Source: Synechococcus sp. PCC 6312 (GTDB lineage: Bacteria; Cyanobacteriota; Cyanobacteriia; Thermosynechococcales; Thermosynechococcaceae). From it: 64,000 bases of DNA. The stretch lies in NCBI RefSeq assembly GCF_000316685.1, contig NC_019680.1, forward strand, positions 497,501 through 561,500, given 5' to 3'. Positions 6,492-62,176 of this stretch are shown one piece after another (positions within the stretch are counted from its first letter, which is position 1; each line of letters begins with the position of its first letter). The notes below the pieces were generated by a model. It saw only the letters and a list, made by a program, of their open reading frames with translations. It was not told where the DNA came from and ran no database searches. The translations under genes and the position numbers were made by a program.

Positions 6492-7736
6492 ATGGGGGCC
6501 GTTAAAGTGGGTGTGGCAAATCTGCGTAATTACGCGCTGGTGACGGTGGCCTATTGGGGCTTCACGATTACCGATGGGGCCTTGCGGATGCTGGTGCTCC
6601 TCTATTTCAACCAAATTGGCTATTCTCCCCTGGATATTGCCCTATTATTTTTGTTTTATGAAATCTTTGGCATCGTCACTAACTTTTTCGGGGGCTGGAT
6701 TGGCTCCCAATTTGGCTTGAAACTCACCCTCTACAGCGGCATTGCCCTCCAGATTGCCTCCTTGGTGATGTTGTCCCCCTTAGAACCCAGTTGGCCGATT
6801 GCCTTTGCAGTCCCCTATGTGATGGTGGCCCAGGCCCTGTCGGGAATTGCCAAGGATCTCACCAAAATGAGTTCTAAAAGTGCGATTCGCTTAGTCGTTC
6901 CCCAAACGGCCCAGAGTCAATTATTCAAGTGGGTGGCGATTCTGACTGGCTCCAAAAATGCCCTCAAGGGGGTGGGGTTCTTTGTGGGGGCCTTGTTGCT
7001 GGGCTGGGTTGGGTTTCAAAATTCCCTCTGGATTATGGCAGTGGGATTACTGATGGTTCTCGTGACCGGCCTGCTTCTTCCGGCAGGGATGGGTAAAGTC
7101 AAAACCAAAGTTAAGGTTCAACAGCTATTTTCTAAAAGTAAAGAAATTAACATTCTCTCGGCCGCGCGGTTTTTTCTGTTTGGGGCCCGGGATGTCTGGT
7201 TTGTGGTGGGTCTGCCCGTGTTTCTACGGAGTATTTTGGGCTGGTCATTCTATCAAGTCGGGGGTTTTTTAGCGATTTGGGTGATTGGCTATGGCCTGGT
7301 GCAGTCCGCGGCTCCCACCCTACTCAATCGGTTTAACCAGGCCCCCCAAGCTGCCACGATTCGCTTTTGGACATTTGCCTTGACCGCCATCCCCGGATTG
7401 ATTGCCATGGCCTTAGGAACGGCTCTGAACCCCAATTTTGTAGTTATTGTTGGGCTGTTAGTCTTTGGCGTGATTTTTGCTTTTAATTCAGCGGTGCATT
7501 CCTATCTCGTATTAGCCTTTACTGACGATGACAAAGTGGCCCTTAATGTTGGCTTTTATTACATGGCCAATTCTGGAGGGAGATTACTGGGCACTGTCCT
7601 ATCGGGTTGGGTTTATCAGACGGCAGGCCTGGGAGGTTGTTTATGGGTGTCATTATTTTTCGTTTTAGTGGCGGGCTTAATTACCTTAAAACTACCCAAT
7701 CCAGACCCTAAAAATTTTGTCCCCAGGCCCTATTAG
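6492..7736 (+). CDS. arsJ: ArsJ-type MFS organoarsenical efflux permease
   Basis: 414-residue major facilitator with about 12 hydrophobic segments. The N-terminal NYALVTVAYWGFTITDGALRM and the cytoplasmic LSGIAKDLTKMSSKSAI and TGSKNALKGVGFF stretches are diagnostic of ArsJ. This pump exports 1-arseno-3-phosphoglycerate made by a GAPDH, giving arsenate resistance. The usual partner gapdh gene and an arsR regulator are not adjacent. ATG 6492 is preferred; GTG 6489 is immediately before it. NADAR and CCA-enzyme genes follow in the same direction. Confidence 0.85.
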   Translation: MGAVKVGVANLRNYALVTVAYWGFTITDGALRMLVLLYFNQIGYSPLDIALLFLFYEIFGIVTNFFGGWIGSQFGLKLTLYSGIALQIASLVMLSPLEPSWPIAFAVPYVMVAQALSGIAKDLTKMSSKSAIRLVVPQTAQSQLFKWVAILTGSKNALKGVGFFVGALLLGWVGFQNSLWIMAVGLLMVLVTGLLLPAGMGKVKTKVKVQQLFSKSKEINILSAARFFLFGARDVWFVVGLPVFLRSILGWSFYQVGGFLAIWVIGYGLVQSAAPTLLNRFNQAPQAATIRFWTFALTAIPGLIAMALGTALNPNFVVIVGLLVFGVIFAFNSAVHSYLVLAFTDDDKVALNVGFYYMANSGGRLLGTVLSGWVYQTAGLGGCLWVSLFFVLVAGLITLKLPNPDPKNFVPRPY

Positions 7737-7831
7737 GTTGTTCGTGAATGAGGGGGGGAGTGGAGATCAGGGTAAAAAGCAATCTAGGATATGAGGGTGA
7801 GAAGGTTCAGCCAAAATTGCTCTTTGCTCTA

Positions 7832-8287
7832 ATGACGATTTATTTCTATCACATTGATCATCCCTATGGCTGTTTCTCCAATTTCTCTCGACATGGCTTT
7901 CACCTCGCTGGTTGCTATTGGCCGACCGCAGAGCACTATTACCAGGCCCAGAAATTTATTAACACTGGCCATGCCTATCTTTCCCAAAGAATTCAATTAG
8001 CCCCAACCCCCGGTGAAGCAGCCCAAATTGGCCGAGATCCTCGCCATCCCCTGCGCCCCGATTGGGAAAAGGTCAAGTTAGAGGTCATGTATGCTGCTAT
8101 TCAAGCCAAGTTTCAGACCCATTCTGATATTCGAGGCATCTTATTAGGGACTGGTGAAGAAGACTTAGTTGAGAATTCCCCCGTGGATAGTTTTTGGGGC
8201 TGTGGGGCCAATGGCAACGGCTCGAACCATTTAGGACGGCTATTAATGCAATTGCGCCAAGAACTACGTCAGGAAAATTCCCCTTAA
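7832..8287 (+). CDS. NADAR family protein (DUF1768)
   Basis: 151-residue protein of the NADAR family, N-glycosidases that act on riboflavin-pathway intermediates or ADP-ribosylated bases. Conserved blocks are YGCFSNFSRHGF, the catalytic-type WPTAEHYYQAQKF and DSFWGCG. The reading frame stays open upstream to 7748, but the family N-terminus begins at MTIYFYHIDHPYG, so ATG 7832 is chosen. It lies seven bases before the CCA-enzyme gene. The specific substrate cannot be told from sequence. Confidence 0.82.
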   Translation: MTIYFYHIDHPYGCFSNFSRHGFHLAGCYWPTAEHYYQAQKFINTGHAYLSQRIQLAPTPGEAAQIGRDPRHPLRPDWEKVKLEVMYAAIQAKFQTHSDIRGILLGTGEEDLVENSPVDSFWGCGANGNGSNHLGRLLMQLRQELRQENSP

Positions 8288-59769: not shown

Positions 59770-60906
59770 ATGGCCCGTGACTATTACGAGGTATTGGGTG
59801 TTTCTCGCAGTGCGGATCAAGATGAACTGAAACGAGCCTATCGCCGATTAGCCCGCAAATACCACCCTGATGTAAATAAGGAGCCGGGGGCTGAAGACCA
59901 GTTCAAGGAAATTAATCGCGCTTATGAAGTCTTATCCGATGCTCAAACCCGGGCCAATTATGATCGGTTTGGAGAAGCTGGCGTGAGTGGGGCCGCCGGT
60001 GGGCCGGGGTTTTCTGACTTTGGCGATATGGGCGGCTTTGCCGATATTTTTGAAACCTTTTTTGGCGGTGGTTTTGGGGGAGTTGGGGGTGGTCAACGCA
60101 CAGCCCGCCGCCCCGGCCCGACTCGGGGTGAAGATCTGCGCTACGACTTGAAACTGGAGTTCCGGGAAGCTGTTTTCGGTGGGGAGAAAGAAATTCGCCT
60201 GACCCATTCCGAAACCTGTGGCACCTGTAATGGAACTGGAGCCAAGCCAGGCACACGTCCAGTCACCTGTTCAACCTGTAATGGAGTTGGGCAAGTGCGG
60301 CGATCGACCCGGACTCCCTTTGGCAGTTTTACCCAGTTGTCTGTTTGTCCCACTTGTAATGGCACGGGGCAGATGATTGAGGAACGCTGCGAAACCTGTG
60401 GCGGTCAGGGGCAAACCCAAGTTAATAAAAAGCTGAAGATTACGATTCCGGCGGGGGTCGATACGGGAACACGCTTACGGGTTTCCAATGAAGGAGACGC
60501 GGGGCAACGGAATGGGCCGCCGGGAGATTTGTATGTTTATTTATTTGTCCAGCCGGATCCGGAGTTCCAGCGAGATGGCAATAACATTCTGACAATCTTA
60601 AAAATTAGCTACCTCCAGGCCATTTTGGGTTGTCGGATTCCGATAAATACGGTGGATGGCGAAGAGGAACTAACGATTCCCCCTGGCACACAACCCAACA
60701 CAGTCTTGACTCTGGAAGATAAGGGTGTCCCCCGCTTAGGCAATCCCGTGGCGCGGGGGGATCATCTCATTACGGTGGAGATCGAGATTCCGACCAAAAC
60801 CAACGCTGAAGAACGGGAACTGCTGGAAAAACTAGCGAAGATTCGCGGTGATCGGATCGGCAAAGGGGGCCTGGAGAACTTTTTAGGTGGGTTATTTGGG
60901 GGATGA
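59770..60906 (+). CDS. dnaJ: Chaperone DnaJ (type I)
   Basis: 378-residue Hsp40: J domain with HPD (residues ~1-70), Gly-rich region ([21 protein letters not shown]), four zinc-finger repeats [24 protein letters not shown] and CETCGGQG, then two C-terminal substrate domains. Complete and normal. It is 17 bases after dnaK and overlaps the tusA-like gene by ATGA. Confidence 0.95.
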
Positions 60907-61145
60907 ACAAATCAATCGAAACCTTAGATCTGCGGGGAACGCCTTGTCCGTTGAATTTTGTCCGCACGAAACTTCGCTTGCAGCAACTCCCACCTGACCA
61001 GGTGTTGGACGTTTGGTTAGATGCGGGGGAGCCGATTGAGCAAGTCCCAGATAGCTTACGGATGGGGGGCTATGTGATTCATGATCTCCAGGCCCAGGAT
61101 GATTTTTATTGCTTGTCCGTGTCTCGTCCCGATAACTTGGCATGA
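60903..61145 (+). CDS. TusA-family sulfur carrier protein
   Basis: 80-residue SirA/TusA-fold protein. The sulfur-carrying Cys is in [13 protein letters not shown] (near residue 15), and [18 protein letters not shown] is typical. Overlaps dnaJ and rsgA with ATGA-type junctions (start 60903; next start 61142), so all three are translationally coupled. Substrate acceptor (tRNA thiolation or other) not known. Confidence 0.85.
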
Positions 61146-62176
61146 CCGGGATCACTGTCATCAATCCGGTGTCGGAGTTGATCGGGACGGTGATGGCAGC
61201 CCAGGCCAATTATTACCGCGTCCAACTCAATGCCCCCACAGCCCCGCCTGGTCAGTTATTGTGCTTACGACGGGGCAAGTTAAAAAAACAAGGACAACAG
61301 GTACTAGTGGGCGACCAGGTGGTTATCAGCGAACCGGATTGGCAGTCTCAGCGCGGGATGATTGATCAAGTGTTGCCCCGTGATTGTGCCTTAACCCGCC
61401 CGGCCATTGCCAATGTCAACCAGATTTTATTGGTGTTTGCCCTACACGACCCGGAGCCAGACCCTTGGCAAGTGAGTCGGTTTTTAGTCACAGCGGAAGC
61501 CAGTGGTTTAGAGATTACCGTTGTTTTGAGTAAGGCAGATCTGGTTGATGGGGCAATACACCAGGCCTGGATTCAGCGCTTAAACCGATGGGGCTATCAA
61601 GAAGTTATTTTGCTGAGTATCTTGACTGGCCTGGGCTTACTGGCCGTCCAATCACTGCTCAACCATAAAATCACGGTCATCTGCGGCCCGTCTGGGGTGG
61701 GCAAAAGTAGTTTGATTAAACAGTTAATTCCTGAACAAGAGATTCGGATTGGGACGGTATCGGAACATTGGCATAAAGGCAAACATACCACTCGGCATAT
61801 TGAATTGTTTCCCTTACCCACTGGTGGACTGTTAGCGGATACCCCCGGATTTAATCAACCCCATCTGGAGTTCTCCCCTTCTGATTTAGCGGCCTGTTTC
61901 CCGGAAATTCGGACGCGCTTGCAAATCCAGGCCTGTCAATTTCATAACTGTCAGCATCTCACCGAGCCGGATTGTGTTGTGCGCGGGGCCTGGGAGCGGT
62001 ATCCCCACTATCAAGTTTTCCATCAAGAGTTAACCGCGGATCAAGACGCGGCGGCAACTACGCCCCATTTAGCTGCAAAACACACCCAACGCCTCAGCCA
62101 ACTCTCTCGCAAAGCCCAACGCCGCCAAAGTCATCAAACCAGCCAAAGTCTATGGCTCGATGATGCTGATAGTTGA
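61142..62176 (+). CDS. rsgA: Ribosome small-subunit GTPase RsgA
   Basis: 344-residue circularly permuted GTPase for late 30S maturation. N-terminal OB fold (about residues 1-75), then VLSKADL (G4), GPSGVGKSSLIKQL (G1) and DTPGF (G3) in permuted order, and a Zn-finger-like CQFHNCQHLTEPDCVV near the end. Complete. Last gene of grpE-dnaK-dnaJ-tusA-rsgA; convergent with the CDF-like gene. Confidence 0.92.
   Translation: MTGITVINPVSELIGTVMAAQANYYRVQLNAPTAPPGQLLCLRRGKLKKQGQQVLVGDQVVISEPDWQSQRGMIDQVLPRDCALTRPAIANVNQILLVFALHDPEPDPWQVSRFLVTAEASGLEITVVLSKADLVDGAIHQAWIQRLNRWGYQEVILLSILTGLGLLAVQSLLNHKITVICGPSGVGKSSLIKQLIPEQEIRIGTVSEHWHKGKHTTRHIELFPLPTGGLLADTPGFNQPHLEFSPSDLAACFPEIRTRLQIQACQFHNCQHLTEPDCVVRGAWERYPHYQVFHQELTADQDAAATTPHLAAKHTQRLSQLSRKAQRRQSHQTSQSLWLDDADS

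Follow-up and report, generated by a model that had tools for sequence, protein, structure and literature searches.

We describe here a short asymmetric word, CCAGGCC, that is iterated through the genome of Synechococcus sp. PCC 6312 (G000; 3,720,499 bases in two contigs), whose gene content reads as cyanobacterial from the translations of its open reading frames (ORFs). The starting point was a 64,000-nucleotide stretch of contig NC_019680.1 (positions 497,501 to 561,500; hereafter the window), in which a preliminary description had noted a 10-base palindrome, CCAGGCCTGG, and proposed that it replaces HIP1 (GCGATCGC), the highly iterated palindrome of many cyanobacteria. The repeated unit is instead the non-palindromic heptamer CCAGGCC, which can be read as a GGCC core with a one-sided CCA flank.

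Genome-wide there are 11,255 copies on both strands, one per 331 bp, and this density (3.03 per kb) is the highest among the 386 genomes of our phylum set; the runner-up as judged by eye (G299, ~1.6 per kb) also has a high control count. The 28 other genomes of the same order, our order comparison set, hold 34-2,264 copies each. All 28 carry HIP1 (1,272-6,357 copies), which occurs 45 times in PCC 6312 and, as had been remarked earlier, never in the window (0.39 expected). The best explanation is that CCAGGCC took over as HIP1 was lost in PCC 6312. To that extent the proposed replacement stands: PCC 6312 has an iterated GC-rich word of its own where all 28 relatives carry HIP1, although the word is no palindrome.

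The repeated unit and the loss of HIP1

Expectations were obtained from an 864-kb sample made up of the window and 40 further stretches (~23% of the genome; 10 picked for methyltransferase genes, the remainder spread by hand), counted on both strands. CCAGGCC occurs there 2,580 times, against 286 expected from a second-order Markov model (a 9-fold excess) and 2,220 from a fifth-order model, whose training includes the hexamers of the motif itself, so that it absorbs most of the effect. For CCAGGCCTGG the count is 378, with 6.1 expected at order 2 and 309 at order 5, so that its excess over the fifth-order model, the yardstick suggested beforehand, is positive but only 1.22-fold.

In the window CCAGGCCTGG occurs 17 times, against a mean of 0.16 over 100 dinucleotide shuffles, none of which reached 17. 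The 16 positions previously read by eye are all correct (9355..9364, 15482..15491, 23064..23073, 27653..27662, 32426..32435, 36905..36914, 37511..37520, 38069..38078, 44251..44260, 45605..45614, 46652..46661, 46850..46859, 49870..49879, 51618..51627, 57727..57736 and 61561..61570), and a seventeenth, two overlapping heptamers that had escaped the list, lies at 2497..2506. The enrichment reaches well beyond the window, with 872 copies in the whole genome (reversed-letter control, 0) against 0-26 in each of the 28 other genomes of the order, and among these it is found only in PCC 6312.

The palindrome was nevertheless rejected as the unit. CC precedes AGGCCT with a probability of 0.533 in the sample, and two independent halves predict 354 palindromes where 378 are counted; to within 7%, the palindrome therefore amounts to two heptamers sharing GGCC. 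Of the 11,255 heptamers genome-wide, 1,744 lie within palindromes. A degenerate CCWGG unit was also rejected, since CCTGGCC is only 1.27-fold over expectation where CCAGGCC is 9-fold; CCCGGCC and ACAGGCC reach 1.58- and 1.99-fold. Beyond the heptamer, no flanking position carries more than 0.104 bit, and the heptamer is denser inside mechanically called ORFs (3.21 per kb) than outside (2.13 per kb), for which reasons we discarded a dispersed repeat of the repetitive extragenic palindrome (REP) or miniature inverted-repeat transposable element (MITE) type. Across the window (1..64000) there are 201 heptamers, 107 on the + strand and 94 on the - strand, at 184 distinct places (3.14 per kb). The segment at 7000..9900, singled out earlier, holds 14 CCAGGCC/GGCCTGG; the shorter CAGGCC/GGCCTG is indeed iterated there, in 18 copies and not the roughly 14 first reported.

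A second genome poor in HIP1 is G042, a congener of G104, G108 and G120 that was sampled since its CCAGGCC count stood out. HIP1 stands at 63 per Mb in G042 and 783 in G104 (values from samples of these two genomes). The top heptamer of G042, ~4-fold over order 2, is CAGGGCC (GGCCCTG), present at 1.49 per kb versus 0.32 in G104; over synonymous shuffles its excess on the two strands is 3.4- and 5.1-fold in G042, and 1.9- and 3.0-fold in G104. G042 also encodes a D12 enzyme of the GGCC family, with 71% identity to the one in G104, and it retains a C5 enzyme of about equal size and score to one in each of its three congeners (unaligned). It seems that HIP1 loss together with a GGCC-ending asymmetric heptamer has occurred twice, with different flanks (CCA and CAG).

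Placement along the genome and imprint on proteins

Coding-strand copies of CCAGGCC lie mostly in the phase xxC CAG GCC (957 of 1,098), as might be expected if the word were a product of codon usage, but it exceeds synonymous-codon shuffles 4.0- to 9.1-fold in all six frame and strand classes. We give almost no credence to codon usage, base composition, very-short-patch repair or a Chi-type site as its source. The Vsr enzyme of very-short-patch repair was found in none of 29 genomes (E <= 0.001) while five of 14 controls were positive, and a Chi site was rejected for want of strand bias, there being 5,630 versus 5,625 copies genome-wide and, in the sample, 1,134 on the coding strand versus 1,063 on the opposite one. 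No consistent replichore skew was seen by eye over the 41 stretches, in which origin and terminus were not located.

The mapping of codon phase and spacing that had been suggested thus yields enrichment in all frames and, beyond 60 bp, a spacing close to random at scales up to 1 kb. At shorter range, only 45 direct pairs lie 8-30 bp apart where 93 would be expected; the ratios for such pairs are 0.23-0.60 for CCAGGCC and 1.35-1.63 for control heptamers of PCC 6312. CCAGGCC also avoids inverted pairs at distances up to 60 bp, the overlapping palindrome aside. GC-rich control heptamers likewise strongly avoid inverted pairs within ~60 bp in the samples of PCC 6312, G017 and G104, and we therefore read this avoidance as a general one of hairpins and not as a functional spacing signal.

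The second contig (C2), presumably a plasmid, is chromosome-like in its motif density, with 87 CCAGGCC in 23,223 bases (3.75 per kb); its first 20 kb matched none of the plasmid records searched. This bears on the idea that CCAGGCC is a DNA uptake sequence built up through natural transformation, which we regard as very improbable. The uptake sequences of Neisseria and Pasteurellaceae are, like CCAGGCC, asymmetric, highly iterated and found in genes, and CCAGGCC is scarce in two 20-kb stretches and missing from seven restriction-modification loci (see below), as for newcomer DNA. It differs from uptake sequences, however, in not being scarce on the small contig and in showing no excess of spaced inverted pairs, short-range ones (up to 60 bp) being in fact avoided. 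It is also roughly three times as dense as known uptake sequences, and sparser outside ORFs than inside.

The two poor stretches, L085 (G000:C1:1680000-1699999) at 0.55 per kb and L064 (G000:C1:2696500-2716499) at 0.65 per kb, compared with ~3 elsewhere, are probably recent islands or newcomer DNA. L064 encodes an integrase-like ORF and an apparent type III restriction-modification system.

The iterated word has left its mark on proteins. In the samples, the dipeptides AW and QA stand at 1.73 and 1.66 of expectation in PCC 6312, at 0.81 and 1.18 in G017, and at 0.79 and 0.98 in G026. Orthologues were taken as reciprocal-best pairs (E <= 1e-20, >35% identity, 60% length), giving 220 pairs over four genomes (100, 15, 62 and 43, some genes being counted up to four times); dipeptides were ranked only with at least 60 informative columns in the four-genome count or at least 40 in the per-genome counts. 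Over the four genomes, QA and AW are the two dipeptides most gained in PCC 6312 and DR is the one most lost. Against G017, the closest of the four (100 pairs, 280 dipeptides ranked), QA comes first, with 213 gained vs 87 and 125 of the 213 lying in the motif, and AW fourth (55 vs 25; 48 in the motif), while DR, which HIP1 encodes in one frame, comes last (40 vs 138; 51 of the 138 in HIP1); GL (23rd) and PG (55th) do not follow the pattern. Against HIP1-rich G104 (163 ranked), QA is first and GL second, but DR is only 139th and AI, encoded by HIP1 in another frame, 158th. Against HIP1-poor G042 (250 ranked), AW is second, but QA at 41st and DR at 195th again depart from the pattern. This gain and loss count superseded a test of conservation, in which QA, GL and AW were slightly less conserved inside the motif than outside it, and PG clearly less (12 of 35 vs 149 of 269). 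The dipeptide shift points to a force able to change amino acids.

Direct selection for the binding site of a chromosome-organizing or repair protein, independent of methylation, could be such a force. It would suit the strong enrichment of the motif, which is seen in genes and outside them, on either strand and on the small second contig alike, and also the shift of dipeptide use along with the motif. Synechocystis mutants without GGCC methylation are described as having a lower level of a topoisomerase 4 subunit and lower UV tolerance (PMC6560206), indicating that the GGCC core touches chromosome biology. We nevertheless hold this explanation to be unlikely: no candidate protein was identified, and the near-random spread beyond 60 bp shows no obvious spacing rule up to 1 kb.

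Methyltransferases and the spread of the motif

Three methyltransferase families were searched for in PCC 6312 and gave 12 enzymes. Six are paired with restriction systems according to Pfam matches of their neighbors: HindVP, Cfr10I/Bse634I, BanI, HaeII, SacI-like (a weak match, 1.2e-7) and EcoRI. A seventh locus, that of N4_e, reads as type III-like, lying near a 950-aa helicase-like ORF. The sites that we take the six systems to recognize occur at 0.02-0.62 of expectation; since GGCGCC is scarce in G017 and G026 as well, such depletion is no proof that the systems act. CCAGGCC was rejected as a restriction-modification target, being enriched whereas such sites are depleted. The seven loci together hold no CCAGGCC in 14.0 kb, where ~42 would be expected; they are also AT-rich. 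The HindVP-family endonuclease and its C5 methyltransferase (L055 8671-10776; G000:C1 ~107.7-109.8 kb) sit amid the ATPase genes of an apparent ABC-transporter operon.

Four methyltransferases without a recognized adjoining endonuclease (by eye) hold nine copies in 3.6 kb: four in the Dam-like D12_a, two in the 753 bases of D12_c, two in N4_b and one in N4_d. Small as these numbers are, they suggest that the genome already had these four as the motif was spreading. Counterparts of N4_b, 51-62% identical, are found in five genomes of genus g11.

N4_d is a 75% identical paralogue of N4_c, and no other methyltransferase exceeds 32% identity to them among the relatives' methyltransferase loci compared; no N4_d relatives were found in viral contigs. 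Perhaps another methyltransferase, such as this pair, recognizes the whole of CCAGGCC. In two of the three exceptional strains of Elhai the relevant enzyme is present in two copies (PMC4390886), and a relative (34%) on a plasmid has a CfrBI-family endonuclease as its partner. N4_c and its 383-aa neighbor, however, resemble a recent restriction system (one motif copy in 2.1 kb, GC 0.325), and the sites ascribed to the restriction systems identified in PCC 6312 are depleted rather than enriched, a depletion that some of them also show in relatives. G042 has only two N4-type matches, both partial, which speaks against N4 enzymes as a general cause, and we think it rather improbable that a methyltransferase of other specificity, this pair included, accounts for the motif. 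The 383-aa ORF beside N4_c (L057 8251-9402) has no Pfam, NCBIfam or plasmid match and is a possible new restriction endonuclease.

D12_c (L063:9387-10139; D12 family, PF02086, 9.6e-35) is by sequence the only one of the 12 whose family specificity falls inside CCAGGCC: a divergent, apparently solitary enzyme of predicted GGCC type. Its identity to nine cyanobacterial members is 35-41%; seven of these share 55-92% with one another, and those of G061 and G073 share 39-44% with the seven. Its nearest relative in the listed plasmid and phage records is a Bartonella harrusi plasmid protein (50.6%), so that D12_c is probably an acquisition, with a precise target that may be different. A HaeIII-family endonuclease lies under or beside the match in three of the 12 plasmid records listed, one of them on a Nostoc plasmid where the relative adjoins the endonuclease. 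One distant locus (35%) was found in genome contigs and none in viral contigs. The preliminary description had pointed to both GGCC and CCWGG as methyltransferase targets in the core, with matching genes to be sought. GGCC has held up, with D12_c as the predicted, divergent representative of its family; for CCWGG no enzyme was identified among the 12, and CCTGGCC is hardly enriched.

The explanation that we put first, while allowing it somewhat less than an even chance, is that the spread of CCAGGCC is linked to methylation through D12_c. This enzyme would methylate the GGCC core, by analogy as GGm4CC, and a methylation-linked process, for instance the methyl-directed repair bias of Elhai or recognition of the methylated site by a reader, would make and maintain the copies. 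The Elhai model, in which a methylated GC steers mismatch repair, would fit a GGCC-based word arising after HIP1 loss, GGm4CC giving the needed GmC. In Elhai's study, a putative methyltransferase is reported for each highly overrepresented word examined, and the GGCC enzyme Alr1052 is placed in the Pfam family of D12_c (PMC4390886). Among the observations counted in favor are these: (i) D12_c carries two motif copies against none in the seven restriction-modification loci. (ii) One-letter variants of CCAGGCC are depleted to 0.55 and 0.56 of expectation at positions 6 and 7, where they alter the last two bases of GGCC, as compared with 0.89-1.19 at positions 1-5; the values for positions 6/7 are 0.99/0.76 in G017 and 1.58/1.07 in G104. 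(iii) GGCC stands at 2.39 of mononucleotide expectation in PCC 6312 and 2.91 in G042, and lower in G017 (1.72), G104 (1.77) and G026 (0.95).

Several points weigh against this explanation. GGCC alone is at 1.03 of order-2 expectation in PCC 6312, so that a GGCC enzyme leaves the CCA flank unaccounted for, and the flank also falls outside what Elhai's mismatch-repair model would cover; a stricter reader was suggested by Elhai for flanks in Oscillatoria (PMC4390886). Variants at the core GG, which pairs with the opposite strand's methylatable C, are not depleted, and in G042 position-6 variants are enriched (1.84). The divergence of D12_c from the cyanobacterial members means that its specificity may differ, and G017, G012, G104, G108 and G120 have members of its family yet low CCAGGCC counts (438-1,076). 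The heptamer of G042 differs from CCAGGCC and is weaker. Finally, N4_b and N4_d are two further apparently solitary methyltransferases besides D12_c.

Two observations from the window stand apart from the motif. GGWCC is nearly absent, with five occurrences (2910, 16517, 23809, 25823 and 45748); in the 864-kb sample GGACC is found 85 times vs 1,581 expected, and GGWCC is also depleted in the samples of G017, G026, G042 and G104 (0.05-0.25 of order-2 expectation), so the depletion is not specific to PCC 6312. The dnaK gene (57850-59752, between grpE and dnaJ by reading of translations) is apparently split into two overlapping ORFs in different frames (57850-58710 and 58667-59752). Some of the protein seems to be lacking between the two, through sequencing error or a real lesion.

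Known iterated words and the role of HIP1

CCAGGCC resembles HIP1 in occurring in thousands of copies, in all frames, in coding and other DNA, and in its dipeptide imprint (DR for HIP1 in G017; QA and AW for CCAGGCC in PCC 6312). The two differ in sequence, and HIP1 is palindromic, with CGATCG and GATC enzymes. Selection on HIP1 was reportedly addressed by Xu, Lawrence and Durand in 2018.

Alternate HIPs are also known: Elhai's 2015 study gives GGCGCC in Calothrix PCC 7103, rCCGGy in Oscillatoria PCC 10802, GCsGC in Cyanothece PCC 7822 and GGGATCCC in Synechococcus OS types A and B (PMC4390886). As in those cases, HIP1 is nearly gone in PCC 6312 amid HIP1-rich relatives; a GC-rich word is present at comparable density, ~1,513 per Mb on each strand, which is how Elhai counts non-palindromes (3,025 for the two strands together), within a range of ~500-2,500; and part of the word has an apparent methyltransferase, the predicted and divergent D12_c. 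CCAGGCC is not palindromic, however, and so is not classed as a member, and the methyltransferase family covers the GGCC core only. Neither CCAGGCC nor GGCC is among the words reported in the available part of that study, where the nearest precedent for the asymmetry is CACCGGCA in Oscillatoria PCC 10802 (PMC4390886). The M.Ssp6803II (DmtB-type) system, which yields GGm4CC, shares the GGCC core, and D12_c is homologous to it by family but divergent; no heptamer is reported for M.Ssp6803II in the available part of its description (PMC6560206). Our literature search found neither CCAGGCC nor GGCCTGG, as whole words, described as an iterated site, and no paper pairing PCC 6312 with HIP1; strain 6312 is not mentioned in the main text of Elhai's study, and the papers listed for CCAGGCCTGG seem, from their titles, to be on other subjects.

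A bolder proposal, which we offer as doubtful, is that HIPs need not be palindromes. After HIP1 loss, the new site would consist of a methylated core (GGCC) and a lineage-specific one-sided flank (CCA here, CAG in G042), the flank being the footprint of a reader that binds on one side and performs the HIP function, and the swap would rewrite amino acids. To our knowledge, the function of HIP1 has been open for decades. PCC 6312 offers a natural experiment, in which HIP1 has been swapped for an unrelated asymmetric word; the features common to both words, perhaps a methylated core, and those not common, such as palindromy, narrow what the cell needs.

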